DNA of 37,825 bases from a virus: positions 1 to 37,825 of IMG/VR virus record IMGVR_UViG_3300015371_000100; one strand, given 5' to 3'. Position numbers and translations under genes: made by a program. Shown piece by piece: positions 4,469 to 35,919 of this stretch (positions are counted from its first letter, which is position 1; each line of letters begins with the position of its first letter). Under the pieces are notes generated by a model. That model was not told where the DNA came from. It made no database searches and saw only the letters and a program-made list of their open reading frames with translations.

Positions 4469-4506
4469 GGCCACTGACCTGACCGACACGACGAAGGAGG
4501 CGCGGG

Positions 4507-9665: not shown

Positions 9666-9668
9666 GTC

Positions 9669-10622: not shown

Positions 10623-10625
10623 CCG

Positions 10626-12647
10626 ATGCCGCCGACGCTCAAGTTCAACACCGGCTTTGAGCACGGGATCTCCGGCCCGACGAACTCCTCCGCGGGCCTG
10701 CGCGTGTTCGACGCGAACAACGGCTCGACCGCCATCGTGACGACCGGGCCGACTGCCGGGATGATCTCGACGCGGTGTATGCAGAACAACACCGCGGGCG
10801 CGGTGTCGAACACGCAGCACACGTTCGGGTCGGCGATCGCGTCACCGGCGACGCAGGTGGCGCGGTTCAAGTTCACGTACAACACGCGCCCGAACGGGAA
10901 CTGCCTGCTGTGGAAAGACAAGTCGGGCACCTACGGGCTGATCTACAACTCGGCCGACAACACGGTGCGCTGCCATGCGAACGGCACCACCGCCGCGTCG
11001 GGGTTCGCGGTCTCCGCGAACACCTGGTACATGGTCGACATCAAGATCGTGAAGAACACGACGGGGACGTGTGACGCGCAGATCACCACGCTCGACGCGA
11101 GCGGCCTCCCGACCGGGGCACCGTCGACGCTCACGCAGGCGAGCGCGGCCGCGGCCGCGGCCACCTCGACCGGGTTCCTCGTCGGGACCATCACCACGTC
11201 GGTGACCGCCAACGCGTTCTTCGACGACATCGCGGTGTCGGGCACCGCGGCGGACTACCCCATCGGGTTCGGCAAGGGCGTCGGCCTCTACCCGAACGGT
11301 GACGACTCCTCGAACCACGTCTACAGCGCGGCCACGGACTTCGGGAAGGGATCGGCGGGGGGCACGAACCTCGCGACCCCGTCCTCGTCGGAGACCACGT
11401 CGTGGCAGTCGCTGGAGAAGCCGATGCACACCGCGGTGCAGACGAACTTCGTCACCGACAAGACCGGCAGCACGACCGAGTGGCTCCAGTGGACGCTGGA
11501 GGACCTGCCTGCGGACTTCGGCACGCTGAACGGCTTGCAGTGGGAGGTCACCGTCCACTCGGCGGCGACGACCGCGGGCAGTAACCACACGATCCAGCAG
11601 ATGCTGTCCGCGGATGGGAACACGTCGCGCTCCGGCGCGCCGTGGGAGTTGTTCAACCTCTCCATCGTCATCACGTCGAAGTCGTGCATCATTTCGCGGC
11701 CGACCGTCGCGCCCGACAACGCGGCGTGGGATGCCACGAAGATCAACGACCTGCGGGTGCGGTTCCTGTCGTCGAACCCGGCCCCGGACGTGCACCTCGA
11801 CGGTGTGTGCCTGGAGATCGACTACACGCCGCCGTCCGGCACCGACGTCAACGTCCCCGACGTCGTCACCGAGACCGGGGCCGCGCTCGCGCCCTCCACC
11901 GACCTCGGGGTCAACGCCGGGCTGAGCACCGAGACCAACGTTGCGCAGGTCGCGCAGGCAGGCGTCGGGCCGCTCGCCGGGCTGACCACGCAGGCACGGG
12001 ACGCGCTGGCACCCACGGTCGCGCTCGGGCAGCCGGTCGTGGGTCTGGCCACGCAGACCCGCGCCGCGCTCGGCCCTCAGGGCGGCCTCGGCGCGCTCGC
12101 CCCGCTCGACACCGCCGCGGTCGCGGTGCTCACCCCCACCTCGGCGCTCACGTTCGCGGCCGCGCTCGCAACCGCGACCGACGCGGCGTACGCGCTGACG
12201 ACCATCGAGACCCTGCCCGGTGGTCTCGGGGCCGACACCGCGAGCGCGCTCACCCCGCAGGCGGGCATCGCCCCGAACAGCGGGCTGGCCACCGCGGGAG
12301 CCGCGGCGTACGACGCGACGGTCCAGACCACTGTCGCCGGGCACGATGCCCCGGCTGGACTCGCGACCGCGAATGACACCGCGTACGACGCGACGGTGGC
12401 GCTGGGCAGCCCGGCTGAGATCAGCACCGCGGGCGCGACCGCGTACGACGCGACGATCCTCCTCGGCACGCTCGCCCCCGCGGGGGAGGTGCTCACGGGC
12501 GCGACCGCGTACGACGCGACCGCGAGTATCGGGGCCAAGGCCGAACTCGCCCTCGCGTCGAACGTCGCGCTCGACGTGAGCGTGCCCATCGACTACGGCA
12601 ACGAAGTGACCGGGGGCGCGCTGCGCCTGACCTCGGTGGCCCCGTAA
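10626..12647 (+). CDS. Fibre-like protein: two beta domains plus about 12 AYDATV-type repeats
   Basis: 673 residues from ATG 10626, 3 nt after the previous stop. Residues 1-215 look like a LamG/concanavalin domain (KFNTGFEHG at the start, WYMVDIKIVKNTTGTCDAQI, AFFDDIAVSG at the end). Residues about 225-405 are a second beta-rich domain. Residues about 410-650 are about twelve degenerate ~20-residue repeats, degenerate at first (AGLSTETNVAQ) and regular later (AGLATANDTAYDATVALGSP, AEISTAGATAYDATILLG). The 14-mer GCGTACGACGCGAC encodes AYDAT in four repeats. It ends TGGALRLTSVAP. Probable virion fibre; the repeats are Thr-rich and could carry sugars, which is inference. Confidence 0.6.
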   Translation: MPPTLKFNTGFEHGISGPTNSSAGLRVFDANNGSTAIVTTGPTAGMISTRCMQNNTAGAVSNTQHTFGSAIASPATQVARFKFTYNTRPNGNCLLWKDKSGTYGLIYNSADNTVRCHANGTTAASGFAVSANTWYMVDIKIVKNTTGTCDAQITTLDASGLPTGAPSTLTQASAAAAAATSTGFLVGTITTSVTANAFFDDIAVSGTAADYPIGFGKGVGLYPNGDDSSNHVYSAATDFGKGSAGGTNLATPSSSETTSWQSLEKPMHTAVQTNFVTDKTGSTTEWLQWTLEDLPADFGTLNGLQWEVTVHSAATTAGSNHTIQQMLSADGNTSRSGAPWELFNLSIVITSKSCIISRPTVAPDNAAWDATKINDLRVRFLSSNPAPDVHLDGVCLEIDYTPPSGTDVNVPDVVTETGAALAPSTDLGVNAGLSTETNVAQVAQAGVGPLAGLTTQARDALAPTVALGQPVVGLATQTRAALGPQGGLGALAPLDTAAVAVLTPTSALTFAAALATATDAAYALTTIETLPGGLGADTASALTPQAGIAPNSGLATAGAAAYDATVQTTVAGHDAPAGLATANDTAYDATVALGSPAEISTAGATAYDATILLGTLAPAGEVLTGATAYDATASIGAKAELALASNVALDVSVPIDYGNEVTGGALRLTSVAP

Positions 12648-14520
12648 TGGCGATCTCGCACGTCGGCTCACTCGCGGACGCCACCGCGAACCGTCAGACG
12701 TCGAGCACGATCACGCTCAACTTCGCGACGCAGGCCGGCGACCTGATCCTGGTCGCCACCACCAACGGCGGCGCGGACACCGACCCCGCGGTGGGCGGCA
12801 CCGTCGTCAGCACGGGCGGCGTGTCGTTCTCCAAGGTCGATGGCACCAACGGCGGGGCGTCCACGGACCTCAACGGGACCCTCTGGATCGGTGTCGCGAC
12901 TGGCGACCACAACGGCCAGACGCTGGTGTCCTCGGGCATGACGAACTCCGCCGCGTCCGCGGTGACCGTGCTGCGCGGCGCGGACCCCACGAAGGTCGCG
13001 TCGAACCCCGTGCTCAACGCCAGCGGCACGAACTCCCTCGCCGCGCTGAACGCGGGGGGCAACGCGGGCTGCTGGCTCGTCCTCGCGCTGTGCTGTGACG
13101 ACAACATCGCGACGACCAGCCCGGTCGCGACCGACCCGGCTGCGATCACCCCACGCGCGGAGCACCTCTCGTCCGGTGGTGTCGACAGCGCGGCCGCGCT
13201 TGCCGCGGCGGCGATGGGCGGCACCGGCTCCACCGGGACGATCTCCTGGACGAACGCACGCGGTGCGGGCCTCTACCAGATCGCCATCGGCGCGATCTTC
13301 AAGGAGGCGATGCCCGTCGAGACTGCCGACGCGGTCCAGACCACCGATGGCACGCACGCCTCCCTCGACCCGGACATCGCGCTCACCGTCCCGGCTGCGC
13401 TGAGCACCGAGACCACCGCCGCGCTCGACGCGCAGGGCGGGGTCGGCGCGGCAGGTTCCCTGAGCACCGCGGGCGCGTCGGCGTACGACGCGACGGTCGA
13501 CGCGGTGAGCGGGCCGAGCGAGGCCAACGCGCCCGCGGGACTCGCGGCCGCGGCCGAGGTGGCGCAGCCCGCGACGGTCACCGTCGATGACACGTTCGTC
13601 ATGCCGGTCGCGAGCGCGACCGCGTACGACGCGACGGTGGACGTGGTCCAGGGGGTGTTCACCGACGCGCCCGCGGGGCTGGCCGCGGCGAGCGACCAGT
13701 CCTACGACGCGACCACCGCACAGTCGGCCAGCGCGGACCTCGCCACCGCGACGGGTGCCGCGCCCCCCATCCGGGCCGATCTCGGCGCGAACGCGCAGCA
13801 CGCCGCCGCGGGAGCCGCAGCGTATGACGCCACCGTCAGCACGCTCACGCTGCACGACGCGCCCGCGGGCCTCGCAGTCGCGGGGGACCAGGCGTATGCA
13901 CCCACGACCGCGCAGAGCGCCCCCAGCGCGCTCGCCACCGCGGGAGCCGCGGCTCACGACGTGAGCGCGGCACTGGGGCCGGTGGCCCTCCCGGCCTCCG
14001 CGGGGGCTACCGGCATGGCTCCAGAAGCCCAGGAGGCAGCCCTCACCGGCCCTGTGGCCGTTTCAGCAGCCGCGCGGGTACCCACCACTGCCATTTCGGC
14101 CCCGGCCGGTGTGGCCGCGCAGGTCCGCGAGGCTTGGCCGCCCAGCGCGACCAACGACCAGACCGTGGCCGCGCCGCATGTCACGGAGAGCGCGCAGGCG
14201 TACGACGCGACGATCGTCGCGGTCAGCCACGTCGACGCGCAGGCGGGGCACAGCGCGGCAGGCGCGGCCGCACATGACGCCACCGTCAGCATCGGTGCAG
14301 TCGCCGGGGTCGCGACGACGACGGGAGTGGCCCTCACCGCGTCGAACGGCCTCGGCGCGGCCGCGGGGGCGGCCTCTGCCGGAGGCACCGTCCCCGCGGC
14401 CACGACCGCCATCGAGGTCGGGGCAGGAGCCGCAGGAGCAGGCGGGGTCGCCGGCGACGTGGTGGCCCCCTCGTTCCTCGTCGGACTCGCGCACGCCTCG
14501 GCCACCGCGTACGACGCGAC
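12306..14520 (+). repeat. In-frame coding repeat with eight exact copies of a 14-mer
   Basis: The 14-mer GCGTACGACGCGAC occurs exactly at 12306, 12381, 12441, 12507, 13481, 13622, 14198 and 14507, always in frame as AYDA(T). The underlying protein repeat is about 20 residues. About 12 units lie in the 673-residue protein, about 18 in the 687-residue protein, and four weaker ones upstream in the 317-residue protein. Spacing varies (60-90 nt for close neighbours), so these are degenerate coding repeats and not a CRISPR array. Confidence 0.8.
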
Positions 14521-14710
14521 CGTCGCGATCCAGCGGCCCACCGGGCACCTCGTCACGTGGGCCAGCCACGACCATGTGGCCGCGCGCGCGCACGGGGCGC
14601 GCGTCCATGTGGGGGCACGCGCCCGCGCCCATGTCCGCACCAGCGCGACGCACGATCAGGTCGCCGTCCATCACGGGGAGCCGGACCGCGTCGAGGTATG
14701 GTCCGACTGA
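12647..14710 (+). CDS. Fibre-like protein: beta domain, about 18 AYDATV-type repeats, His-rich tail
   Basis: 687 residues. The ATG at 12647 shares one base with the preceding TAA. Residues 1-220 are a beta-rich domain (MAISHVGS, TLNFATQAGDLILVATTNGG, GLYQIAIGAIFKEA) of a type common at the start of phage fibre proteins. Residues about 245-635 are Ala-rich repeats (AGLAAASDQSYDATTAQSA, STAGASAYDATVDAVSG, SAAGAAAHDATVSIGAVAG), some highly degenerate. The last ~50 residues carry nine histidines in an alternating pattern (SHDHVAARAHGARVHVG, HDQVAVHHGE), unlike the rest, and may bind metal or form a beta tip. Same family as the two preceding genes. Confidence 0.6.
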   Translation: MAISHVGSLADATANRQTSSTITLNFATQAGDLILVATTNGGADTDPAVGGTVVSTGGVSFSKVDGTNGGASTDLNGTLWIGVATGDHNGQTLVSSGMTNSAASAVTVLRGADPTKVASNPVLNASGTNSLAALNAGGNAGCWLVLALCCDDNIATTSPVATDPAAITPRAEHLSSGGVDSAAALAAAAMGGTGSTGTISWTNARGAGLYQIAIGAIFKEAMPVETADAVQTTDGTHASLDPDIALTVPAALSTETTAALDAQGGVGAAGSLSTAGASAYDATVDAVSGPSEANAPAGLAAAAEVAQPATVTVDDTFVMPVASATAYDATVDVVQGVFTDAPAGLAAASDQSYDATTAQSASADLATATGAAPPIRADLGANAQHAAAGAAAYDATVSTLTLHDAPAGLAVAGDQAYAPTTAQSAPSALATAGAAAHDVSAALGPVALPASAGATGMAPEAQEAALTGPVAVSAAARVPTTAISAPAGVAAQVREAWPPSATNDQTVAAPHVTESAQAYDATIVAVSHVDAQAGHSAAGAAAHDATVSIGAVAGVATTTGVALTASNGLGAAAGAASAGGTVPAATTAIEVGAGAAGAGGVAGDVVAPSFLVGLAHASATAYDATVAIQRPTGHLVTWASHDHVAARAHGARVHVGARARAHVRTSATHDQVAVHHGEPDRVEVWSD

Positions 14711-26009: not shown

Positions 26010-26947
26010 GCACCGGCATCGACTGGTCCGAGCACGACAACCGCAGGCACCCCGGCCTCGACCTCGCGCAGTTCTTCGCCGGGTTCGACTACGTGATCGT
26101 CCGCACGCACAACGAGAACGCGGGGCTGGACGCGTTCGTGGGCGTGAACGTCGACGCGGCGAAGCGATGCGGGAAGCCGTGGGGTCTGTACGCGTGGCCG
26201 GTCACCGGCTGGGGCCATGACGGCAACCGCCAGCACGCGGCGTCCATCGTGCGTCAGTTCGGCGCGGGACCGCTCGGGCTGTGGGCCGACGCGGAGCACT
26301 CCCCCCGCGGCTTCGCCACGCATGACGAGGTCGTCGGGTTCGTCATCGGCGCGGGCGACAGCGGCGCGGTGGGCGGCTACTACTGCGCCATCGGGGAGTT
26401 GTACCGCTCGCCGCTCATCGACCGCGTGCCCTGGTGGATGAGCGACTACGACGTCAACGACGGCACGTACCACGACCCGAACCGCATCGCGCCACGCCCA
26501 CCCGAGGACCGGCCGTGGGCGATCCACCAGTTCACGTCACTCGGCTGGCCCGGTGGCGGGAGCCTCGATGTCAACTACGCCGAGGCGATCGCACCGCCGC
26601 CACCGCCACGGCCGAAGGAGTCCGACATGTACGTCGTCCAGAACAACGACCACCCCGAGAAGATCGTGCTCCACACCGCGCTCGGCACCACCGACAACAT
26701 CGACGCGCACTACCGCGACGTGCTCGCCTACTGCGGCGTGCAGGTCGTGAACCTCCCCGACCAGCAGTTCAACGACACCGAGTTGATCCACTACGGCCAG
26801 CGCCGCCAGTTCATCGACGACGTGGTGACCGCGATCCCCGCGGACGGTGAGCCGCCGCCCGTGAGCGACGCGGCGGTGCTGGCCCGCACGAACGAGATGC
26901 TCGCCGCGGGCACGGCGCACATCGACGGCGGGCAGGTCGCGGTCTAG
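26006..26947 (+). CDS. Endolysin, GH25-type muramidase
   Basis: 313 residues from GTG 26006 (GTGA overlap with the holin-like gene). Residues 1-195 show the GH25 lysozyme pattern: GIDWSEHD at the start, FDYVIVRTHNENAG, GLYAWPVTG, the catalytic WADAEH (D95 and E97), WWMSDY (about 143-148), AIHQFTS (172-178) and LDVNYAEAI (187-195). GH25 enzymes cleave the MurNAc-GlcNAc bond of peptidoglycan. A Pro-rich linker (about 197-203) leads to a ~110-residue C-terminal part (MYVVQNNDHPEKIVLHTALG) of unknown type, perhaps a wall-binding domain. Its stop overlaps that of the convergent glycosyltransferase on a CTAG. Confidence 0.85.
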   Translation: MSTGIDWSEHDNRRHPGLDLAQFFAGFDYVIVRTHNENAGLDAFVGVNVDAAKRCGKPWGLYAWPVTGWGHDGNRQHAASIVRQFGAGPLGLWADAEHSPRGFATHDEVVGFVIGAGDSGAVGGYYCAIGELYRSPLIDRVPWWMSDYDVNDGTYHDPNRIAPRPPEDRPWAIHQFTSLGWPGGGSLDVNYAEAIAPPPPPRPKESDMYVVQNNDHPEKIVLHTALGTTDNIDAHYRDVLAYCGVQVVNLPDQQFNDTELIHYGQRRQFIDDVVTAIPADGEPPPVSDAAVLARTNEMLAAGTAHIDGGQVAV

Positions 26948-27960
26948 GCGAGCGTCCGCTCCCAGCGGTCCAGCAGCCGCGTCCAGGAGTTGCGCTCCGC
27001 CCACGCACTCGCCGCGTCGGAGGCCTCGGTGATGTCGATGAGGGTCGAGCACCACGCCATCGCGTCGGCCACGTCCCCCGGCTCGGCCTCGTACACCGAG
27101 AAGTCGCCGCCCTTCATGCGCGCCATCGAGGACCCCGTGACCGGGACCGTGAGCGCACCGCCCCACGTCCGCTCGGGGTCGCGCTCCAGGCAGATCGTCG
27201 GGCAGCCCGCAGCCGCGGCCTCCAGTTGCACCATGCTCAGCCCGCCGTAGCGGCGCGGCTGGAGGAGCACGTCGATGTCGGCCTGCCACCGCTCCCAGTA
27301 CGACTCGACGTCGGGCACCGGGTAGATCGTGACCTCGCCCACGGTGGTCACCTCCGCGGGCTTCGCCGGGCCGGCGACCATGAGGTCAATCGGCAGGCCG
27401 TCGTAGCGCTCGCACGCAGCCCGCACCAGTTGCGTCCCGTTGCGGTCCAGCATCGCGGGGGACGAGATGTGCAGGAACGTGCGGGCCACCCCGAGGCGGG
27501 TGCGGTAGGGGATCACGTCGCGGGCCACGGGCTGGGGCAGCAGCGTGTGCGCGCCGAGGCGCTCGACCTCCCACTCGGTCGGGGCGTACACCTCGATGAT
27601 CCCGCGGCGCGCGAGCGCGGCATACGAGGGGACGAACAACTCGGGATTGACGAGCAACTGGAGCCTGGTGCCGACGCCCGCCTCCATGATGCGGTCGTCC
27701 AGGTAGAAGGTCTCGGGGGCGATGACGCGGTCGCACTCGCACAGCCACTCGACCATCGGGTGCGCGATGGGGTTCTCCGCGATGAGCATGGTCTCGCCCA
27801 TCACGTAGCCGAGGTTGACGAACCGCAGCATGTAGAACCCGCCGCGGCGCGGGTGCACGTCCACGATCAGCACCCGGTCGGGCCGCAGATGCCGTGCCAG
27901 TTCCCACGCCTGCGTGCCGAGGCCGCCGTTGTCGGCGCGTGCGATCAGCCCGAGCGTCAT
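26944..27960 (-). CDS. Glycosyltransferase, GT-B fold (GT4-like)
   Basis: 338 residues from ATG 27960, in an ATGA overlap with a 25-codon ORF. The frame is open upstream (reading DFSWWVLLAERPRPD) but has no usable start except a TTG. It begins LGLIARADNGGLGTQAWELA, the N-terminal GT-B sugar-acceptor loop. It has VYAPTEWEVERLG mid-protein and LHISSPAMLDRNGTQLVRAA in the second domain, then YWERWQADIDVLLQPRRYGG and LSMVQLEAAAAGCPTICLER. The EAxAxG...P pattern is typical of nucleotide-sugar binding in GT4 enzymes. It is the last gene of the leftward operon. Substrate unknown. Confidence 0.75.
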   Translation of the reverse strand: MTLGLIARADNGGLGTQAWELARHLRPDRVLIVDVHPRRGGFYMLRFVNLGYVMGETMLIAENPIAHPMVEWLCECDRVIAPETFYLDDRIMEAGVGTRLQLLVNPELFVPSYAALARRGIIEVYAPTEWEVERLGAHTLLPQPVARDVIPYRTRLGVARTFLHISSPAMLDRNGTQLVRAACERYDGLPIDLMVAGPAKPAEVTTVGEVTIYPVPDVESYWERWQADIDVLLQPRRYGGLSMVQLEAAAAGCPTICLERDPERTWGGALTVPVTGSSMARMKGGDFSVYEAEPGDVADAMAWCSTLIDITEASDAASAWAERNSWTRLLDRWERTLA

Positions 27961-28034
27961 GTCCGGCCGGGGCCGCTCTGCGAGCAAGACCCACCAGGAA
28001 AAGTCGCGCGAGCGACCCCGACCGGAACCTTCAT
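27957..28034 (-). CDS. Tiny ORF bridging two genes by ATGA at both ends
   Basis: 25 residues starting MKVPVGVARATF and ending SGPGRT. Its ATG overlaps the stop of the oxygenase-like gene and its stop overlaps the ATG of the glycosyltransferase, both as ATGA. The double overlap suggests it is translated, at least to carry ribosomes to the next gene. The peptide has no recognisable feature. An open alternative frame in the same DNA reads FSWWVLL, continuous with the glycosyltransferase, so it may be fortuitous. Confidence 0.35.
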   Translation of the reverse strand: MKVPVGVARATFPGGSCSQSGPGRT

Positions 28035-28471
28035 GCCGCTGCCCCTTGCGGCAAGTAGTAGAGCAGAGATGCGCGGTACCCCGCACCCGTGATGGGCGTC
28101 ACCTCATGCTTGAACCGCGGATCGAACACGATCACGTCCCCGTCGTCGCACAGGTAGATCGTGTCCGTGCCCGCCGACCAGACGTGCAGTGCCCCGCCCA
28201 TCGTGTCGTGGCGGAAGATGACCAGCCCGTTGACGCACGGGGCGTAGGGCGCGGTCTTGTCGACGTGCGGGGCGAGCCACGCGTTCCAGTTGAGCAACGC
28301 GGCGCGGGGCGCGTCGACCGTGTACCCGCGCTCGACCGCCGCGACGGCCACGTGGTCACCGAGGCGCTCGATCGCGTGTGACCAGGACGCGTCATCGAAG
28401 CGCCAGAACGTGCGGGGCGGCAGCGCGAGCGCGAGCAGTTCGGCACGGACCTCCTCCAGTAGCGCGCTCAT
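28031..28471 (-). CDS. 2-oxoglutarate/Fe(II) oxygenase-like protein
   Basis: 146 residues from ATG 28471 (ATGA overlap). It has the double-stranded beta-helix iron-binding pattern: H69-V-D71, then GLVIFRHDTMGGALHVW, IYLCDDGDVIVFDPRFKHEV with distal H122, and R133 in GYRASLLYYLP, the usual 2-oxoglutarate anchor position. Enzymes of this superfamily hydroxylate proteins, sugars or nucleotides using Fe(II), oxygen and 2-oxoglutarate. At 146 residues it is short but contains all key positions. Among glycosyltransferases it might hydroxylate an acceptor residue or modify a sugar; the substrate is unknown. Confidence 0.6.
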   Translation of the reverse strand: MSALLEEVRAELLALALPPRTFWRFDDASWSHAIERLGDHVAVAAVERGYTVDAPRAALLNWNAWLAPHVDKTAPYAPCVNGLVIFRHDTMGGALHVWSAGTDTIYLCDDGDVIVFDPRFKHEVTPITGAGYRASLLYYLPQGAAA

Positions 28472-28752
28472 GCGTTCGACGCCAAGATGCCAGTGACCGC
28501 GGAGAACGCGAGCGCGGCCGCGACGGGGGACCAGGCCCGCGGTGCGACGCGGCGCGCGACCACGACCCCGCAGGAGACCCACCAGCCCACGCACCAGGGG
28601 CACGACAGCAGCGTGTTCACCTTCGCGGCCACCCCCGGTGAGTCCACCGAGCGCATCGCCGCGTGACGCACACGGTCGCGGATCGGCGCGGTGATCTCGT
28701 CCTCCACGATCAGGCGGGTGAGCCGGTAGGTGGCGAGCGCGTCGATGCTCAC
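28468..28752 (-). CDS. DUF1360-type membrane protein
   Basis: 94 residues from GTG 28752 (GTGA overlap with the 27-residue gene). It starts SIDALATYRLTRLIVEDEIT with APIRDRV following, then LLSCPWCVGWWVSCGVVVA, the pattern of the DUF1360 family found in phages and bacteria. There are probably two membrane segments (about 54-67 and 77-92). The CPWC motif resembles a redox or metal pair. Function of the family is unknown to me. It sits in a run of tiny membrane proteins. Confidence 0.7.
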   Translation of the reverse strand: MSIDALATYRLTRLIVEDEITAPIRDRVRHAAMRSVDSPGVAAKVNTLLSCPWCVGWWVSCGVVVARRVAPRAWSPVAAALAFSAVTGILASNA

Positions 28753-28832
28753 TTCAACGCCAGTCCGATCGCGACGGCGGCGAGGAACGCCAACGCCACG
28801 GCGACGAGTATCCATTCGGGCGGGTCCTCCAT
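28749..28832 (-). CDS. 27-residue membrane peptide
   Basis: ATG 28832 directly follows the preceding stop. The stop overlaps the GTG of the DUF1360 gene (GTGA). The peptide begins MEDPPEW and continues as one hydrophobic helix (ILVAVALAFLAAVAIGLAL) ending in Lys, a clean single-span topology. The abutting start, exact 4-nt overlap and perfect membrane design argue that it is real, although too short for most gene callers. Confidence 0.55.
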   Translation of the reverse strand: MEDPPEWILVAVALAFLAAVAIGLALK

Positions 28833-28964
28833 TCACGACAGCGCGGCGTCGAGGATGAGCAGCGCGATCGCGAGCAGCGACAGGCCGAGGCCGATCCAGC
28901 ACATGAGCGTCAGGTGGTCCTCCCACCAGTCCACGACGATGTCGAACCAGCGCGGCGCGTTCAC
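28833..28964 (-). CDS. 43-residue membrane protein
   Basis: GTG 28964 lies in a GTGA overlap with the upstream gene. A longer frame exists, but its earlier part shadows that gene. The N-terminal half is amphipathic and Trp-rich (APRWFDIVVDWWEDHLTL). The C-terminal half is one membrane span (MCWIGLGLSLLAIALLILDA). With the adjacent 27-residue and DUF1360 genes it forms a three-gene membrane cluster. Function unknown. Confidence 0.55.
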   Translation of the reverse strand: MNAPRWFDIVVDWWEDHLTLMCWIGLGLSLLAIALLILDAALS

Positions 28965-29125
28965 GACTTCCGTCCCCACACCGCACGCCACTCGTAGCCG
29001 ACCTCGGAGAACAGGTACCAGAAGCCCTCGTTGTCCGCAGACAGGAAGCGTGCCCCGTCGAGCCAGCCGAGGAACACCAGGTCCTCCGCAGGCGGGGGCG
29101 TCGCGTACTGCTCGCGCCACGTCAC
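28961..29125 (-). CDS. Small protein, function unknown
   Basis: 54 residues from GTG 29125, overlapping neighbours by GTGA at both ends. It reads TWREQYATPPPAEDLVFLGW then LDGARFLSADNEGFWYLFSE and ends EWRAVWGRKS. It is rich in aromatic residues and looks like a small folded beta domain. No family recognised. Confidence 0.5.
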   Translation of the reverse strand: MTWREQYATPPPAEDLVFLGWLDGARFLSADNEGFWYLFSEVGYEWRAVWGRKS

Positions 29126-29391
29126 GGCTGCCTCGGGAACGGGTCGGGCGGCAAGTCGGACGAGATCGTCAGCCCACCGAGCGCGGTGCTCTGGATGTTC
29201 TCGGCCAGTGCGCGCATGTCGGGGGCGGGGGCGAACAGCACCACCGCGCCGGTGAGCGTGTGGAAGATGAGCCGCAGCATCGGCGCGGACTCCCCGTTCG
29301 GGAGCGGTGCGTTGCCGACGCGTGAGACATGCCAGGAGAACGGTGTCGGCTGCGGCTGCACCTGCGGTGGCGTGGGCTGCGCGTCAGCCAT
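29122..29391 (-). CDS. Small protein, function unknown
   Basis: 89 residues from ATG 29391, 2 nt after the methyltransferase stop. A Pro/Gln-rich start (QPTPPQVQPQPTPFSW) leads to GNAPLPNGESAPMLRLIFHT, GAVVLFAPAPDMRALAENIQ and a Pro-rich end. The middle alternates strand and helix and may form a small alpha/beta domain. No recognisable motif. Confidence 0.6.
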   Translation of the reverse strand: MADAQPTPPQVQPQPTPFSWHVSRVGNAPLPNGESAPMLRLIFHTLTGAVVLFAPAPDMRALAENIQSTALGGLTISSDLPPDPFPRQP

Positions 29392-29393
29392 GG

Positions 29394-30086
29394 TCAGTAC
29401 CTGTACGCATAGAGCATCCCCCCGTGGTTCGGGTCACCGAACACCGTGACCGAGTGCGTGTAGATCAGCCGCTCGACCATGCGGCCCATCTTCCCCGCCG
29501 CGGACTCGCGCACCGCGCCCATCTGGCCGTGCCACTCCATCGCGAACCGCGCCACGCGCTGCAACGCCTCGTCGGACGCGGCCTCGATGAGGTCGAACTC
29601 GCAGCCCTCGCAGTCCACCTTCACGATGATCGGCCGGTCGTGGCCGAAGTGCGCGAGGAGCCTGTCGAGCGTCGTGCCCTCGACCGCGGGTCGCCAGTCC
29701 ATGACGTACCCGTGGCGGTCCACGACTGCGCGGAGCGTGGTCTGGCTCGGGCCGACGCCGGGGCCGAGGACGCGCGCGCACCCGTCCCCCGCGGCCGCAG
29801 TGACGAAGTGGACGCGCCCGTCATGGCCGAGCATCTTCGCGGCGCGGTCGTGGTGCTCCTGCATCGGGTCCACCGCGACGACGAAGTGCGCGCCGTGGTA
29901 GAGCGCGAACGCGGTGAAGTAGCCCACGTTGCTGCCGACGTCGAGGACGACGGTGCCCTCCAGTTCTGAGCGGCCCAACTGGTACACGTTGCGCTGCCAC
30001 ACGTCGCGGTACGCCGCGTCCTCGTCCGCGCTCCTGGTCTCGACCCAGCCACAGCCGGGGACCTCATGCGTCGTGTAGCGCGTCAC
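29394..30086 (-). CDS. FkbM-family SAM-dependent methyltransferase
   Basis: 230 residues from GTG 30086 (GTGA overlap). Motif I is VVLDVGSNVGYFTA (46-59), with VVAVDPM as the motif II acid. IIVKVDCEGCEFDLIEAA (about 153-170) is the K-x-D-x-E-G-x-E signature of the FkbM family, and GGMLYAYRY ends the protein. FkbM proteins O-methylate hydroxyls of sugars and natural products using SAM. Beside four glycosyltransferases it most likely caps a glycan by methylation. Complete and with all key motifs. Confidence 0.78.
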   Translation of the reverse strand: MTRYTTHEVPGCGWVETRSADEDAAYRDVWQRNVYQLGRSELEGTVVLDVGSNVGYFTAFALYHGAHFVVAVDPMQEHHDRAAKMLGHDGRVHFVTAAAGDGCARVLGPGVGPSQTTLRAVVDRHGYVMDWRPAVEGTTLDRLLAHFGHDRPIIVKVDCEGCEFDLIEAASDEALQRVARFAMEWHGQMGAVRESAAGKMGRMVERLIYTHSVTVFGDPNHGGMLYAYRY

Positions 30087-30298
30087 GGGTTGACCCGCAC
30101 GCACCGCAACTTGACCTCCACGGTGCCTGACTGGACGAGCAACTTCGTGTCGCGGTCGGTCGCGATCTGGAACGGCTGCACGACGGTGATCTCGCCGCCC
30201 TCGGTGATCGTGTACTCCTCCCCTGTGTCGCGCCCGTTCGCGCCCACGACGCGCAACGTGACGGACTTCTTGCGCCGGAACATCGTCTTGAAACTCAT
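30083..30298 (-). CDS. Small beta-rich protein, function unknown
   Basis: 71 residues from ATG 30298 (ATGA overlap, AAGGG 8 nt upstream). A basic start (MSFKTMFRRKKSV) precedes alternating strands: TLRVVGANGRDTGEEYTITE, EITVVQPFQIATDRDTKLLV, GTVEVKLRCVRVNP. It looks like a small beta barrel or sandwich. A longer frame exists but overlaps the upstream glycosyltransferase. Role unknown. Confidence 0.6.
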   Translation of the reverse strand: MSFKTMFRRKKSVTLRVVGANGRDTGEEYTITEGGEITVVQPFQIATDRDTKLLVQSGTVEVKLRCVRVNP

Positions 30299-31098
30299 GG
30301 GGTGATCCCTTCGGGCCAGTCGTACTCGGACGGGTCGACGTGCAGCAGCGCCAGCCCGTTGATGTCCATGCCCGACACCGCGAGGTCGCCGAGGTCGTCG
30401 TGACGGTAGGCGAGTTCGCCGTGGGAGAACGCGTGCAACTTCCAGCGGCGTCGTGCGTCGTCGCCCCACCACGACAGGTGCCACCCGCCGTAGGGCGCGG
30501 CAGGCTGCGGCGCGTCCACGTGCACCTTGTCGCTCACGTCCCCGATGGTGCGGCAGAGGTCGGTGCCCCGTGCGTCACGCATCCACTGCAAGCCCTCACT
30601 CGCCACCGTGTTGTGCGTCGCGATGGTCGTGCCCAGCCACGGGCCGGGGTACAGCCACGCCGCGGACCAGGGGTGCATCCGCATGGCGAGGCAGAGGACC
30701 CGCCCATCGGCCACGTCACCGCGCTCGATCGCGCCCAGCACCTCGGGGCGCGGGATCTCGTCCACGTCGCTGAGCGCGACCAGCCCGTCATCGCCGGCGA
30801 GCCGACACGCCCGCGTGCTGGCCCCGAGGCGATGCGCGCGCTCACGCACCTGGTAGCCGGGCATCCCCGCGCCGCCACCAGGCGTGCCGTCGTAGGCGGC
30901 CAGGCTCACGAACGCGACCATGACCGGCAGGTCCCCGCACTCCTCGATCCACGCCTCGCTCGGGGTCACCTCCCCCTGGTGCGTGCGGTCCGCGACGATG
31001 GCGAGGTGCAGCACGTCCAGCGGGGCGAGCGTCGCGACGCGGGACTCCAGCAGGTCGCGCTCGCCTGCGTACAGGAACGCGTCCACGACGCGTGTCAC
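30295..31098 (-). CDS. GT17-like glycosyltransferase
   Basis: 267 residues from GTG 31098 (GTGA overlap). It matches the GT17 layout: VVDAFLYAGERDLLESRVAT at the start (EldlLEiRL-like), HLAIVADRTHQG, GLVALSDVDEIPRPEVL with the D111-x-D113 metal motif, LCLAMRMHPWSAAWLYPG, and GGWHLSWWG ... LHAFSHGELAY. Known GT17 members add GlcNAc in beta-1,4 linkage to mannosyl cores, and similar genes occur in large phages and bacteria. The phage substrate is unknown. One of the firmest calls in this operon. Confidence 0.78.
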   Translation of the reverse strand: MTRVVDAFLYAGERDLLESRVATLAPLDVLHLAIVADRTHQGEVTPSEAWIEECGDLPVMVAFVSLAAYDGTPGGGAGMPGYQVRERAHRLGASTRACRLAGDDGLVALSDVDEIPRPEVLGAIERGDVADGRVLCLAMRMHPWSAAWLYPGPWLGTTIATHNTVASEGLQWMRDARGTDLCRTIGDVSDKVHVDAPQPAAPYGGWHLSWWGDDARRRWKLHAFSHGELAYRHDDLGDLAVSGMDINGLALLHVDPSEYDWPEGITP

Positions 31099-31565
31099 GA
31101 CGCGACCAGCATCGACGCGAGCATCCGCGGCGGGACGTAGTAGCAGCCGCCGCCGTAGCGGTGCTCCTCCCACCACTCGGCCCGCAGCCCCCACCCGGGG
31201 CGGTAGTACCCGACCAGGTCCACGGTCGCGCAGTGGTTCGTGAGCAGCGCGACGCGGGCGAGCACGTAGGCGCGGCCAGGTGGATCGTCACCGTGCAGGA
31301 TCAGCCGCCCGTTGGTGCGCGTGGTGGCCCGCACCTCCAGCCGCCCGACATCCCCGTACGGGGACTGCACGTCGTCGGGCGTCGGCCACGGGAGGTCGTA
31401 GTGCCGCGCCACCGCCAGTTCCCCGAGCACGCCGATGTGGTGGTCCTGGCGCGAACGGTCGTCCCCCTGGCCGAAGCGCGTGGTGCCGAGGGGGTGGCGT
31501 CCGTCGCGTCGGCGTGCGTAGTCCGCACACGCGGCCACGTCCGCGGCGGTGAGTTCCACGATCAC
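31095..31565 (-). CDS. PD-(D/E)XK-like protein, possible nuclease fold
   Basis: 156 residues from GTG 31565, with GGAGG 7 nt upstream. The pattern HHIGVLGELAVARHYDLPWP (45-62), then D72, then L-E77-V-R79, a RLILHGDD strand and AYVLARVALL ... VDLVGYY resembles small phage members of the PD-(D/E)XK fold (E...D...ExK with R in place of K). The Lys-to-Arg change could mean altered or lost catalysis. It may act on DNA; its presence within a sugar-modification operon is odd. Call by pattern only. Confidence 0.45.
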   Translation of the reverse strand: MIVELTAADVAACADYARRRDGRHPLGTTRFGQGDDRSRQDHHIGVLGELAVARHYDLPWPTPDDVQSPYGDVGRLEVRATTRTNGRLILHGDDPPGRAYVLARVALLTNHCATVDLVGYYRPGWGLRAEWWEEHRYGGGCYYVPPRMLASMLVAS

Positions 31566-31684
31566 GGGGTGTCCTCCACCGCGTGCAGCACCGCGCCCTC
31601 GGGCGGCTCGGGGAACGCGAGCGCGAGGCGCTTGGCGTCCCGTAGCCCTCGGCGGTTGCGCCACCATCGTCGGAGCGCGCTCAC
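31562..31684 (-). CDS. 40-residue basic protein
   Basis: GTG 31684 with GAGGAGGG about 6 nt upstream, overlapping both neighbours by GTGA. It begins MSALRRWWRNRRGLRDAKRL, strongly basic and amphipathic, and ends acidic (PPEGAVLHAVEDTP). The good ribosome site and double overlap support translation. The basic helix could bind nucleic acid or a membrane surface. Function unknown. Confidence 0.5.
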   Translation of the reverse strand: MSALRRWWRNRRGLRDAKRLALAFPEPPEGAVLHAVEDTP

Positions 31685-32457
31685 TCTTTTCCCTCCTCAA
31701 CCGAATGCCACGTGTCGAGCGAATAGAAGAACTGGCACTCGCGCAGCATCACGGCGCGGTCGGTGCTCCCACACGTAGGACACGAACGAACATCTGACCC
31801 GCCCGTCGGGGTGGGACCGCCCACGTAGGTCCAGTCGAGGGTCGGGTCGTTGTACGGGGTGCGGTACCGCTCTCGGCGCGGCAGCCCGCCCCACTTGCTG
31901 ACGTAGTAGCCCTGCGCCCAGCCGAAGTCGGGGTCGGCCAAGCCGCGGTTGATCGAGTGCGCGTCGCCGCGGTTCACGCGCAGGTCGACGTACGCCTGCA
32001 CGTTGCCCTCGACCCACAGGTCCCCGAACCCCGCCAACTTGTGGCGGTAGATCCAGTCGCTGTCCTCGTAGTACGCGACGAACCCCGCGTCGAACACGCC
32101 GACCTCCGCGAGCATCGGCACGGGGATCGCGTGCAGGTGCCAGCCGCAGCCGATGCCGCTCACCATGCGCCGGAACTCGGGCCGGTGCGGGTTCGGCTCG
32201 GCGCGCTCCAGCGCGTCCGCGAAGTCGGCACCGCCCGCGTGGCCGAGCACGATCGCGGTGCTCATGAGGATGAGCCAGTCGAACCCGTCGCACTCCAGCG
32301 CGAAGCGTGCGGCCGACTGCCACACGGGTGCGACGCCGATGTTGCCCGCGGAGTTGTCCCACTCGCAGAACGTGCGCAGCCGCGCGTCGGTGATCGAGTC
32401 GATGGTCGCGTCGCGCAGCGCACGGTCGAGCCACGGCAGGCACACGACGGCCCTCAT
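31681..32457 (-). CDS. GT-A glycosyltransferase-like protein with C-terminal CxxC
   Basis: 258 residues from ATG 32457 (ATGA overlap). It starts MRAVVCLPWLDRALRDATID then FCEWDNSAGNIGVAPVWQSA, the usual GT2/GT-A opening. DWLILMSTAIVLG (60-72) takes the place of the DxD strand but lacks the second acid (MST), so catalysis may differ. VSGIGCGWHLHAIPVPMLAEVGVFDAGFVAYYEDSDW is a typical acceptor-side segment with the ED base pair. The C-terminus carries CPTCGSTDRAVMLREC, a partial zinc-binding site unusual for this family. Sugar and acceptor unknown. Confidence 0.65.
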   Translation of the reverse strand: MRAVVCLPWLDRALRDATIDSITDARLRTFCEWDNSAGNIGVAPVWQSAARFALECDGFDWLILMSTAIVLGHAGGADFADALERAEPNPHRPEFRRMVSGIGCGWHLHAIPVPMLAEVGVFDAGFVAYYEDSDWIYRHKLAGFGDLWVEGNVQAYVDLRVNRGDAHSINRGLADPDFGWAQGYYVSKWGGLPRRERYRTPYNDPTLDWTYVGGPTPTGGSDVRSCPTCGSTDRAVMLRECQFFYSLDTWHSVEEGKE

Positions 32458-32816
32458 GCGACCGGCACCGCGCTCGTCCCGACCCACCACTGATCCACGC
32501 GGCCCGACAGTGAGCGCAGCCACGCAGGGTGCGCGTGGTGCATCGCCGCGAACAGGAGCCACGGCATCGCGTCGGGCGGCTCATCGAGCACGAAGCAGTG
32601 CTCCATGCGGTCACACGTCAGCATCTTCGACGTGAGACCCACGTCCTCGCGGCGCGGCGTCGCGAGCGGGGTGGCCCACCAGACCGCAGGTGCGTCCGCG
32701 AGGCCGGTGTCGTAGCCGAGCGCGTCGAGCGCAGCCCACGCCACCAGCGGCTTCACGACCCCCGACGCGGCGATCCCCGCCGCGCCGTGGCTGCACGTGA
32801 AGTGGTACAGCCTCAC
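32454..32816 (-). CDS. Putative ADP-ribosyltransferase-like (ART fold) protein
   Basis: 120 residues from GTG 32816 (GTGA overlap). It begins RLYHFTCSHGAAGIAASGVV and continues VWWATPLATPRREDVGLTSK, CDRMEHCFVLDEPP and a helical region. The opening Y-H-F-T followed by a helix and GxxxP, then a W-x-T strand, resembles ART or KptA/RES-type NAD-binding domains; H5 would be the NAD histidine. I recall related small phage proteins without assigned function. If active it might modify a host protein, nucleic acid or defence factor. Weak fold-level call. Confidence 0.4.
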   Translation of the reverse strand: MRLYHFTCSHGAAGIAASGVVKPLVAWAALDALGYDTGLADAPAVWWATPLATPRREDVGLTSKMLTCDRMEHCFVLDEPPDAMPWLLFAAMHHAHPAWLRSLSGRVDQWWVGTSAVPVA

Positions 32817-33808
32817 TCGTCCAGCCCGATCTCGTTCAGCACGCGGCACACGCGGTCGACGTAGGTGTCGCGCTTGCGGCTGATCGTGGTCATGAGTTCC
32901 TGCATGTGCAGGCGTGGCACCTCGGCCGTGATCCACGACGTGATGAGGTCGCGCAGCGTGCGCCAGTCCCCGCACTCCCACTGCCAGCCGGGGTGCTGCT
33001 CGCCGGTCAGTTGCAGCGCGCGCTCGTTCAGCGCGTCGACGCGGGGGTGGATCAGGAAGCCGCCACGCCCCCACGTTTCGGGGACGCGGTCGGACCAGTA
33101 GCGGAAGTCGGGCGCGGTGAGGCAGGAGTCCCCGACCCACACGGGCACGCTGCGGTACCAGCGGTTGAGGTCCTCACCGTTGACGCGCGGCGTGGACGTG
33201 CCCCCGAGATGCACGAAGCGGTCCCCGTACCAGTCGCGCAGGTGCGCGAGCAGTTCACCGCGGTGCGGCCACTCGACGTGGTAGCGGTCCGACCCGGCGA
33301 AGCCGACGAGGTACTGGCTCGGCATGGGCGTCGCGTCGTAGCACCAGCGCGCGCCGACACCGGGCGGGAGCCAGTGGTGGTTCACGCCGTCGCGTTTCCA
33401 CAGGTGGTCGTGGCTGCCGTCCGGGGTGAACACGTGCGCGACGCGGAACATCGGGTGCTGTGCGGGGAGGTGCCGACGCTGCACACCACCGCGCTTCGCC
33501 GCGCCGATGCCGTAGAACAGGTCGAGGTGCATCGACGCGGTCGGGATGCCGCGCTGCGCGCACAGGTTCCAGAGCCGCACTGTCGCGTCGGTGTCGGGGT
33601 ACTGCCCCTGCGTCATCGTGTGCAGCACCAGGTCCGCGGCGACCGCGCGGTCCGCGACGAGGGCGCGTCCACGCTCGGTGTCGAGCGCGGTCATGAAGTC
33701 GGCTTCCTGGTGCGCGTCGACGTCCCAGCCGAGGGACTCAAACGCGAGGCGGATCTCGTTCTCGGTCGAGTACGGCGCAGCAAAGTTGCCGATGTAGTAC
33801 GCACGCAT
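32813..33808 (-). CDS. Glycosyltransferase, GT-B type (CgeB-like)
   Basis: 331 residues from ATG 33808, with AGGAG 7 nt upstream. First gene of the leftward operon. It starts MRAYYIGNFAAPYSTENEIR and has AADLVLHTMTQGQYPDTDAT, RGIPTASMHLDLFYGIGAAK, a VGFAGSDRYHVEWPHRGELL segment opening the second Rossmann domain, and VWVGDSCLTAPDFRYWSDRV with PETWGRGGFLIHPRVD. The final R-x-x-E-x-x-x-x-G-G-F-L-like pattern is the nucleotide-sugar site of CgeB/GT1-type enzymes. Substrate unknown. Confidence 0.68.
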   Translation of the reverse strand: MRAYYIGNFAAPYSTENEIRLAFESLGWDVDAHQEADFMTALDTERGRALVADRAVAADLVLHTMTQGQYPDTDATVRLWNLCAQRGIPTASMHLDLFYGIGAAKRGGVQRRHLPAQHPMFRVAHVFTPDGSHDHLWKRDGVNHHWLPPGVGARWCYDATPMPSQYLVGFAGSDRYHVEWPHRGELLAHLRDWYGDRFVHLGGTSTPRVNGEDLNRWYRSVPVWVGDSCLTAPDFRYWSDRVPETWGRGGFLIHPRVDALNERALQLTGEQHPGWQWECGDWRTLRDLITSWITAEVPRLHMQELMTTISRKRDTYVDRVCRVLNEIGLDE

Positions 33809-33872: not shown

Positions 33873-34136
33873 TCAGCCGCCCCCGCAGCCGCAGTCCATC
33901 TTCTCGATGAGCCACGCCTCGCCCGTGTCGCTGACGAGGTCGGCCACCTTCCCGTTCACGTTCCCGGTGATGCCCGTCGCCTCGGCCGCGAGCAGCCCGT
34001 TGGCATGGAACACCTGCACCTTGGCGGTGGAGAACACGACACGCACCCTGCGGTCCCGCACCGGGGACGCGTTGCGCCCGTTCGGCCAGCGCGTCACCTT
34101 CGCCTTCGCCCACACCAGGTCGGTCGGCAACGTCAT
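33873..34136 (-). CDS. Small protein with CGC-ended C-terminus
   Basis: 87 residues from ATG 34136 (ATGA overlap with the JAMM gene). It starts MTLPTDLVWAKAKVTRWPNG, has strands RRVRVVFSTAKVQVFHANGL and ends DTGEAWLIEKMDCGCGGG. The terminal CGC could bind metal. I recall similar small proteins near virion genes in actinophages. Function unknown; pairing with a peptidase gene may be meaningful. Confidence 0.6.
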   Translation of the reverse strand: MTLPTDLVWAKAKVTRWPNGRNASPVRDRRVRVVFSTAKVQVFHANGLLAAEATGITGNVNGKVADLVSDTGEAWLIEKMDCGCGGG

Positions 34137-34552
34137 GGGTCCAACGCTACCGACAGTTCCAGGATGCGCGCGGGAGCCAGGATGCGGTAGGCGTGCACCG
34201 CTTCGTGGCGGCCGACGAGCAGATGCACGAACGCGGGGCCGAGGTGCGCGTTGTCCGCGCAGTCCTGCACCGACAGATGGTCGGGACCATCGGGATGCGA
34301 GTGGAAGCCCCCGAAGATCGCGAGGCCGAGCCGCAGCGCGCGGTGGATGGTCTCGATGGTGTCGTCGCGTGCGATGGCGAAGTAGTGCTCGGGGTCCGCG
34401 GCCACGTTGGGGACCGCGACCACGAACAGCACGCGGCGGTCCAGTTCGGTGCCGAGGAGGTAGCCGCACGCCTCCGCGGGCTGGGCGGCGCGGCACGCGT
34501 CAAGGACGGCGTCCATCGCCCGGTGCGAGAGCGTGAGCGTGAGCGGGTTCAT
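34133..34552 (-). CDS. JAMM/MPN-type metallopeptidase
   Basis: 139 residues from ATG 34552 (ATGA overlap with terminase). All JAMM zinc residues are present: E27 in AEACGYLLG, H84-S-H86-P in GFHSHPDGP, then S94 and D97 (H-x-H-x7-S-x2-D). Length is right for a stand-alone MPN domain. Such enzymes remove ubiquitin-like tags or cleave proteins. In lambda-type phages a related domain is part of tail protein K, but here the gene follows terminase. Target unknown; the catalytic set looks intact. Confidence 0.78.
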   Translation of the reverse strand: MNPLTLTLSHRAMDAVLDACRAAQPAEACGYLLGTELDRRVLFVVAVPNVAADPEHYFAIARDDTIETIHRALRLGLAIFGGFHSHPDGPDHLSVQDCADNAHLGPAFVHLLVGRHEAVHAYRILAPARILELSVALDP

Positions 34553-35919
34553 GTCGGGGTCACCACCTTCCGCCCCGCCGCCGTCGAGCCAGTGATGTCG
34601 GGGCGCACACGCACGCGGGCGAAGCCACCGGAGCAGCCGTCCACCTGGTCGTCGTGCGCGCCGGAGTGCTGCGGGTCCTCGGAGAACGCCTCCATCTCGT
34701 CGAACAGGGTCTCGACCCAGGGGCCGCGCACGAACTGCACGCGGTGCTTCTCCATCGCCGCGGCGAGCGGGCGTGCCCGCAGCCCCTTCGATCCCTTCAC
34801 AGGGTCGCCCCGCATGGTGATCCCCTCAGGACACACGTTGCGCTTGTAGTGGTCCACCAGCGCCTTCCCGGCACCGGGGACCTGCTCGACCCACTGCGTG
34901 CACCTGGAGCCGTCTGAGCGGGCTGTCTCGGCCACGATCTTCTCGGTGGTGCCGGGCGTCTGGCGGAACCGCACCAGGTGCTCCACGCAGTACACGCCGG
35001 AGCGCCGGCGAGAGATCCGTGCGCCCGCGGTGTAGTCGGGATCGGGGTTCGCCTCGGACGGCTCCGCGGCCGCGAGGTCCCAGTAGCGCACGCGCGCCAG
35101 CACGTCGGTCGGCACCGCGTCGAGGAAGTCGGTCGGCTCCAGCCACACGCGCGGCTGGAACATCTCGCCGGGGTCGGCCGCGTCCCAGTCGCCGTACAGG
35201 ATGCGCCGCCAGTGCGTGGGGTGCAGTTCCTGGAGGGTCTCGACGTACTCGGCCGCGTCGAGGTACGGGTTGTCGTCCAGCAACGCCTTGATGAACACGG
35301 CGCGCCCGAGGCGTGTCACCGGGTCCACGAACCGCGCCTTGACCCACGCGTGCCCGCGGCCACCGGGGTTCGACCCCGAGCGCATGCGGATCGGGACGGG
35401 CAGCCCCTCGACACGACGCAGGCGTGAGAACAGGAAGCGGTAGTCGGACTCCTCCCAGGAGGTCAACTCGTCCACGCCGATGTACTGGAACTCCGAGGTC
35501 TCGTACTTCCGCACGTCGTCGTAGTTGGCACCCACGAAGCCGAAGGTGAGCGTGGCTCCGCTCGGGAACGTCCAGCGCTTCTGGCCCTCATGCCACCGCG
35601 CGTCGGTGCCGTCGAGCCAGGAGTGGCTCAGCGGGATCAGCGAGCCGGGCAGCGCCAACTGCTTGTAGTTCCGCCGCAGCAGCAGCGCGGCGTACCCAGG
35701 CACGTCGACGTACTGGAGCGCGCCCATGAGCAGCGCGGTCGTCTTGCCCGGACCTGCCGCCCCGCCGTAGAACGCCTCACGCTCGTTGAGCAGCAGGAAC
35801 GCCGCCTGTTTAGGCGTCGGGACCAGCGGGATGTACTTCGTCAGCCTCGGGATCGTCGCCGTCGCCAGTGCTGCCCGTCGCCCCTCGCTCACCGTTGGGA
35901 GAAACGACGACGAGTTCAC
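34549..35919 (-). CDS. terL: Terminase large subunit
   Basis: 456 residues from GTG 35919, with GGAGG 6 nt upstream. This start overlaps the terminase small subunit by 110 nt but is well supported. The ATPase has Walker A GGAAGPGKTT (52-61), Walker B YIGVDE (146-151), and the coupling segment SGSNPGGRGH. The nuclease has D281 in RYWDLAAAEPS, and HDDQVD (422-427) near the C-terminus. It cuts and translocates phage DNA into the prohead. Read on the strand opposite the capsid genes. Confidence 0.9.
   Translation of the reverse strand: MNSSSFLPTVSEGRRAALATATIPRLTKYIPLVPTPKQAAFLLLNEREAFYGGAAGPGKTTALLMGALQYVDVPGYAALLLRRNYKQLALPGSLIPLSHSWLDGTDARWHEGQKRWTFPSGATLTFGFVGANYDDVRKYETSEFQYIGVDELTSWEESDYRFLFSRLRRVEGLPVPIRMRSGSNPGGRGHAWVKARFVDPVTRLGRAVFIKALLDDNPYLDAAEYVETLQELHPTHWRRILYGDWDAADPGEMFQPRVWLEPTDFLDAVPTDVLARVRYWDLAAAEPSEANPDPDYTAGARISRRRSGVYCVEHLVRFRQTPGTTEKIVAETARSDGSRCTQWVEQVPGAGKALVDHYKRNVCPEGITMRGDPVKGSKGLRARPLAAAMEKHRVQFVRGPWVETLFDEMEAFSEDPQHSGAHDDQVDGCSGGFARVRVRPDITGSTAAGRKVVTPT

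Follow-up and report, generated by a model that had tools for sequence, protein, structure and literature searches.

What would a phage build with four glycosyltransferase-like genes, a methyltransferase gene and an oxygenase-like gene joined in one operon? The question is raised by positions 26944-33808 of the IMG/VR virus record IMGVR_UViG_3300015371_000100, which was analysed as a single stretch of 37,825 nucleotides (37.8 kb, G + C content 70.6%; hereafter the window). The operon is, in our judgement, probably a phage virion-glycosylation cassette that would coat the particle with a small, methylated chain of sugars. The main new result is that three of its genes, encoding CgeB-type, FkbM-family and GT4-type proteins, appear in a conserved order in phages of several head lineages, which supports a core that moves as a block, i.e. 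a mobile cassette.

Operon structure and enzyme families

The operon consists of exactly 16 co-directional open reading frames (ORFs) on the minus strand. Fourteen encode proteins of 40-338 amino acids (aa) and the other two are tiny (28749-28832, 27 aa, and 27957-28034, 25 aa); with these two included, the number agrees with the 16 genes counted in the initial annotation. Of the 15 junctions, 13 are 4-nt stop/start overlaps and the remaining two are 0 and +2 nt. The first gene is separated by 64 nt from the previous ORF (stop 33873), and the genes for a JAB-domain protein and for the terminase large (TerL) and small (TerS) subunits lie on the same strand, so that the cassette adjoins packaging genes. 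A search of the operon for consensus sequences of a sigma-70-like promoter or a terminator gave neither. Given this, and with TerS, TerL and JAB upstream on the same strand, the transcription unit is possibly larger; 33808 is not a proven boundary and the operon may continue upstream beyond it. The genes with resemblance to enzyme families are as follows.

32813-33808, minus strand: predicted CgeB-type GT-B glycosyltransferase, first cassette gene (phrog_28745 'glycosyltransferase', 1e-36; relatives in locus L008 and Streptomyces phages)
31681-32457, minus strand: GT-A (GT2-like) glycosyltransferase candidate (phrog_29879 'galactosyl transferase', 8e-4; homologues in L086 and L088)
30295-31098, minus strand: GT17-like glycosyltransferase (PF04724, 8e-6; DVDEIP motif)
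29394-30086, minus strand: predicted FkbM-family methyltransferase (TIGR01444, 6.5e-20; PF05050, 1.4e-9)
28031-28471, minus strand: 2-oxoglutarate/Fe(II) oxygenase candidate (PF13640, 4e-4, under the cut-off; HxD...H...R kept)
26944-27960, minus strand: predicted GT4-type GT-B glycosyltransferase, last cassette gene (PF13692, 1.5e-4, under the cut-off; phage GT4 relatives)

The four glycosyltransferase-like genes, the FkbM gene and the oxygenase-like gene had been named in the initial annotation, and these calls largely hold in profile searches, with a strength that varies by gene. The FkbM assignment is firm, the protein passing the curated family cut-off of TIGR01444 in NCBIfam (72 bits versus 37.7). 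The CgeB-type assignment is firm at the level of the PHROG family; the protein is 42% identical to that of L008 and has relatives in Streptomyces phages including Dryad. The GT4 protein shares 39% identity over its full length with the phage GT4 of L075 and belongs to a clear phage family, whose profile matches maltose-1-phosphate synthase in PDB at 0.0025. The GT17-like protein scores 25.6 bits with PF04724 against a cut-off of 26, while its L064 relative passes at 36.7, and its DVDEIP motif aligns with DGDEIP in Orf4 of Gordonia phage GMA2. No Pfam match was found for the GT-A protein itself. It has three homologues, of which two (L086 and L088) exceed the cut-off of Pfam Glycos_transf_2, and only through these relatives is the GT-A call supported. 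A sequence search of PDB gave nothing useful for GT-A, GT17 or CgeB, and the predicted structure of the GT-A candidate was too poor for use (mean predicted local distance difference test score, pLDDT, 37.8). As had been noted earlier, no nucleotide-sugar synthesis genes were seen among the scanned window ORFs.

The oxygenase call is weak. The 146-aa protein has 36% identity over 92 aa to gp2 of phage Acadian, and the alignments place in it the HxD...H...R catalytic residues of TET/JBP oxygenases. Its nearest phage relatives are gp2 of Acadian and Reprobate (Acadianvirus) and proteins in L070 and L071; a profile of these TET-like phage proteins scores it at 27-29 bits. It is like Acadianvirus gp2 in a catalytic core of about 90 aa (36-43% identity) with HxD...H...R, but is half as long, lacks both the N-terminal block that its TET-like phage relatives have in common and their ParB/TerS neighbourhood, and lies in a glycosyltransferase operon. 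The Acadian, L070 and L071 proteins match Pfam Tet_JBP (1.4e-4 to 4e-7), whereas the window protein has no Tet_JBP match at E<=1 and prefers PF13640. For want of that match and of the N-terminal block we did not class it as a TET/JBP member, although it may derive from one. Its predicted structure was too poor for use (mean pLDDT 46.8). As a separate observation, Acadianvirus gp2 is labelled "queuine tRNA-ribosyltransferase" yet looks TET/JBP-like (L003:813-1691, L066:807-1670, L070:5048-5944, L071:1181-2065), and is probably a mis-annotated DNA hypermodification gene.

A recurring gene order beside phage head genes

Viral and genome contigs were scanned with alignments of CgeB, GT17, the oxygenase and GT4, and the fetched loci were then searched with the window proteins. 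Scans of viral contigs with single sequences of CgeB, GT-A and TerL found nothing, nor did a scan with the GT-A alignment. Gene order was compared in the 16 loci that GT4 alone had brought up and that include 3 kb or more of upstream sequence; they lie on 14 viral contigs and two contigs of actinobacterial metagenome-assembled genomes. A direct CgeB match was located upstream of GT4 on the same strand in all 16 (E 7.5e-72 to 1e-31), and FkbM was found between the two in 13 by iterated profile and in seven by direct search. The window has the same arrangement as the other loci, with CgeB first, FkbM between and GT4 last on one strand. The 16 loci are phylogenetically non-independent; the cassette coordinates of L084 and L092, for example, are nearly identical. 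In 23 control loci of the GT17-only or TET-like type, which together span 270 kb, none of the three genes was found. Other GT4 loci, cut near the match, stand outside the 16: L074, where both genes are present but ordered differently, and L076, L081, L089, L090 and L093. Gene fusions were also found, one ORF joining CgeB and FkbM (L085) and one joining GT47 parts to GT4 (L010), and these are independent evidence for a shared pathway.

The interior of the cassette is variable. GT47/RXYLT1-like genes were found in L008, L037 and L082, GT-A in L019, L086 and L088, GT17 alongside a homologue of GT4 in L064, the single clear cassette of this kind, and a nucleoside diphosphate-sugar epimerase in some related sets (L022). 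An oxygenase homologue was found in no other CgeB-FkbM-GT4 cassette searched; among the unlabelled ORFs of the other cassettes no convincing HxD...H...R oxygenase was recognised by pattern, a search that a different oxygenase family could escape. The idea that the operon travels as a block is therefore borne out for CgeB, FkbM and GT4, in the same order and strand, and fails for the whole 16-gene set. The set had also been called unusually rich, which is only partly so, as related phages (L008, L037, L016, L082 and L009) have three to five such enzymes; it is the oxygenase that seems to make the window copy unusual. We propose that CgeB, FkbM and GT4 form a conserved core and that GT-A, GT17 and the oxygenase are exchangeable additions which would set the detailed structure of the product.

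Most loci with identifiable neighbours adjoin portal, capsid or terminase genes, and these belong to several head lineages. In the head lineage of the window the cassette lies in or beside portal, capsid or tail modules (L008, L012, L020, L037, L064, L073, L075, L076, L079, L082 and L085), and its site changes: it separates portal from capsid in L008, the capsid gene from the next head gene in L073, the head genes from the tail-tube genes in L020 and the tail tube from the tape measure in L012 and L075, and in L079 it is upstream of the portal. In low-GC phages with an unrelated portal, phrog_2662 (L083, L084, L087 and L091), it is found immediately upstream of packaging and head genes; L084 has TerL phrog_2, portal phrog_2662 and major capsid protein phrog_10, and L092 resembles L084 by coordinates. 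A third portal family occurs at the cassette locus of L072. A virion-modifying, horizontally exchanged cassette would be expected to lie repeatedly next to head genes while its exact position changes, as is seen here, and the recurring core order suggests that the trait travels as one unit. The order CgeB...FkbM...GT4, which reappears next to head genes of several capsid lineages without relation to one another, would allow phages with glycosylated virions to be picked out by a simple sequence marker. Phage glycan coats affect antibody recognition, and given this effect, knowing which phages carry glycan machinery matters for ecology and for phage therapy.

Other features of the fetched loci were observed. 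Intein-like inserts of about 290-330 aa occur in CgeB (L037:9974-12085, and L072) and in GT4 (L072), those of L072 at 2842-4980 and 8780-10768; they start with TEVLT..GW and end with YFTGN or YTGN before S, and in CgeB they sit at a conserved WSDR motif. A radical-SAM-like gene (L016:1838-2677; phrog_13987, 6e-4) lies just upstream of two FkbM genes within a CgeB-GT4 cassette. Nearly all of the metagenomic viral contigs L048-L062 have two GT17-like genes side by side, apparently through tandem duplication.

Possible function of the cassette

Virion glycosylation is suggested by the 16 coupled ORFs, the conserved CgeB/FkbM/GT4 order and the fusions, and also by the linkage to head genes in several lineages, similar sets in actinophages and the known virion glycosylation of mycobacteriophages. 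The operon structure and the resemblance of its products to enzyme families are observed; all of the biochemistry is our inference, including the acceptor and the order in which sugars would be added. In the late phase of infection a host-derived sugar would be attached to a virion protein by one glycosyltransferase and extended by the others; the FkbM enzyme would then O-methylate a sugar hydroxyl to give a short capped glycan. The oxygenase would probably hydroxylate an acceptor residue or a sugar, which is the least certain step; hydroxylation of the acceptor is a guess, as the TET/JBP-like phage relatives point as much to DNA as to protein. The acceptor may be the capsid or the Ser/Thr-rich proteins between the tail-tube and tape-measure genes.

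2624-4468, plus strand: major capsid protein, possible acceptor (phrog_777, 1.6e-65)
9669-14710, plus strand: three Ser/Thr/Ala-rich proteins between the tail-tube and tape-measure genes, possible acceptors

The three proteins have a Ser + Thr content of 18-24%. Two of them, consecutive in the virion module at 10626-14710, consist of degenerate Ala/Thr-rich repeats with the motif A[YH]D[AV][TS], which was observed 11 times against 0.05 expected from shuffled sequences. The first repeat protein had no match in 50,697 phage records, and among the fetched loci such proteins were found in the window only. They would thus be acceptors at most here and offer no general explanation of the cassette.

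The capsid protein of the window matches those of Arthrobacter, Gordonia, Mycobacterium and Microbacterium phages, which makes an actinobacterial host likely. Virion glycosylation is already known from actinophages. The mycobacteriophages Che8, Corndog and Myrna glycosylate virion proteins with their own glycosyltransferases, and in mycobacteriophages such enzymes act on capsid and tail tube, according to the account of Freeman 2023 given in PMC11256854 and PMC12363180. The window resembles this system in having phage-encoded glycosyltransferases in an actinobacterial-type tailed phage, with virion proteins as proposed targets. Unlike it, the window packs many enzymes into one operon and adds FkbM and the oxygenase.

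The closest isolates with comparable sets are Streptomyces phages (Dryad, Wentworth and Yara) and Gordonia phage GMA2. Dryad, Wentworth, Yara and phiRKBJ001 share with the window a CgeB-type glycosyltransferase (31-33% identity) followed by a GT-A-like (MobA/GT-A-like) protein and FkbM; in Dryad, Wentworth and Yara this group lies downstream of a large tailspike-like gene. In these phages, unlike the window, no GT4, GT17 or oxygenase homologue was found and the terminase is not adjacent, and their GT-A-like protein has no detectable relation to that of the window. GMA2 has the same capsid family (34%), a GT17 homologue near TerL, and a methyltransferase with two GT2-type genes among its head-tail genes. 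It differs from the window in that its genes lie at two places, its methyltransferase is Methyltransf_24/TylF-like rather than FkbM, and no CgeB, GT4 or oxygenase match was found. The GMA2 'galactosyl transferase' (Orf22) and methyltransferase (Orf21) were considered as relatives of the window GT-A and FkbM and rejected, no relation being detectable.

Several observations weigh against virion glycosylation. The operon runs opposite to most virion genes of the window. The nucleotide-sugar-binding DxD motif is absent from the GT-A candidate, in which STA stands at that position and EDSDW is kept; inspection of the alignment by eye gave STA, SAA or SSS there across the window protein and all three relatives. 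The CgeB-GT-A-GT4 set of L088 adjoins ribonucleotide reductase and not head genes. None of the four glycosyltransferases had a mycobacteriophage match by tblastn at E<=0.01 in the 50,697 phage records searched, so that the likeness to Che8, Corndog and Myrna is one of role and not of descent, with no homology link to their proven enzymes. Finally, the oxygenase resembles TET/JBP enzymes, which act on DNA.

This last resemblance raises the alternative of DNA hypermodification, in which a TET/JBP-like oxygenase adds a hydroxyl to the methyl group of a pyrimidine in phage DNA, and this hydroxyl is decorated by the glycosyltransferases and the methyltransferase so that restriction is evaded. The genes for the Tet_JBP-matching relatives of the oxygenase have ParB-like neighbours, joined in L070 by a P-loop nucleotide kinase gene (PF18751), and the profile of the TET-like group, with the window protein included and the relatives dominating, matches only Naegleria Tet in PDB (1e-5). 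We nevertheless regard this alternative as unlikely, given the preference of the short window protein for PF13640, its missing N-terminal block and the absence of the oxygenase from core cassettes elsewhere; the scanned ORFs of this probably incomplete contig also showed no gene for a DNA methyltransferase or for nucleotide hydroxymethylation. A more specific scheme, quite unlikely in our view, joins the two pathways: a TET/JBP-derived oxygenase core would have been taken over from DNA modification by a virion-glycan operon, in which it makes the hydroxyl, on an amino-acid side chain or a sugar, to which the methylated oligosaccharide is attached. If the oxygenase does act in the same pathway, this would link DNA and virion modification strategies, which have so far been treated separately.

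The enzymes might instead alter a cell-wall glycan or teichoic acid of the host during infection, blocking superinfection or helping release. The end of the operon adjoins the endolysin gene, and small hydrophobic proteins and a DUF1360 protein are encoded within it. Such a role would not lead one to expect the association with head and packaging genes that recurs across several lineages, however, and no serotype-conversion-type flippase or polyprenyl-phosphate glycosyltransferase was recognised in the scanned ORFs; we think host-surface modification distinctly improbable. It is possible, though we would not expect it, that the operon is a mixed late unit in which a virion glycan is made by CgeB, FkbM and GT4, with the oxygenase, DUF1360, phrog_18407 and the other small genes as unrelated passengers whose position brings them into the transcript, a reading compatible with virion glycosylation as far as the core is concerned. 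The oxygenase and most of the small ORFs have no counterparts in other cassettes, and DUF1360 occurs elsewhere in the terminase-portal neighbourhood, lying between TerL and portal in L070 and L071. Passengers are harder to reconcile with the 4-nt overlaps that join nearly all genes and with the position of the oxygenase directly upstream of GT4, with only the 25-aa ORF between them.

Other genes of the operon and the window

The remaining ORFs of the operon, and the terminase gene upstream of it, are as follows.

34549-35919, minus strand: terminase large subunit, upstream of the cassette on the same strand (phrog_979, 3.5e-105)
32454-32816, minus strand: 120-aa protein starting RLYHFTCSHGAAGIAASGVVKP, with a faint HYD1-type ADP-ribosyltransferase resemblance (Pfam Tox-ART-HYD1, E=0.35 only)
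31562-31684, minus strand: 40-aa ORF with 4-nt overlaps on both sides
31095-31565, minus strand: phage protein (phrog_18407, 6e-16)
30083-30298, minus strand: 71-aa ORF in the overlap chain
29122-29391, minus strand: 89-aa ORF in the junction chain
28961-29125, minus strand: 54-aa ORF in the junction chain
28833-28964, minus strand: 43-aa ORF with a hydrophobic, membrane-like stretch in its sequence
28749-28832, minus strand: 27-aa hydrophobic ORF in the junction chain
28468-28752, minus strand: DUF1360 protein (PF07098, 1.3e-15)
27957-28034, minus strand: 25-aa ORF in the junction chain

No relatives of the 120-aa protein were found in the fetched loci. The plus strand of the window encodes the portal, major capsid protein, major tail protein, tape measure, a tail protein and the endolysin, and the minus strand the terminase small and large subunits and the JAB-domain protein, followed by the operon. 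The scanned ORFs included no recognisable replication genes, so that the record is probably incomplete, and the right half of the window matched no known phage by megablast. Directly after TerL, the JAB-domain metalloprotease-like gene (34133-34552) matches PF14464 at 5.5e-15 and the NCBIfam desampylase model at 6e-16, the latter under that model's cut-off. A tRNA-Met gene (anticodon CAT) was found at 2213-2286, within the structural module, with the portal region on one side and the capsid gene on the other.

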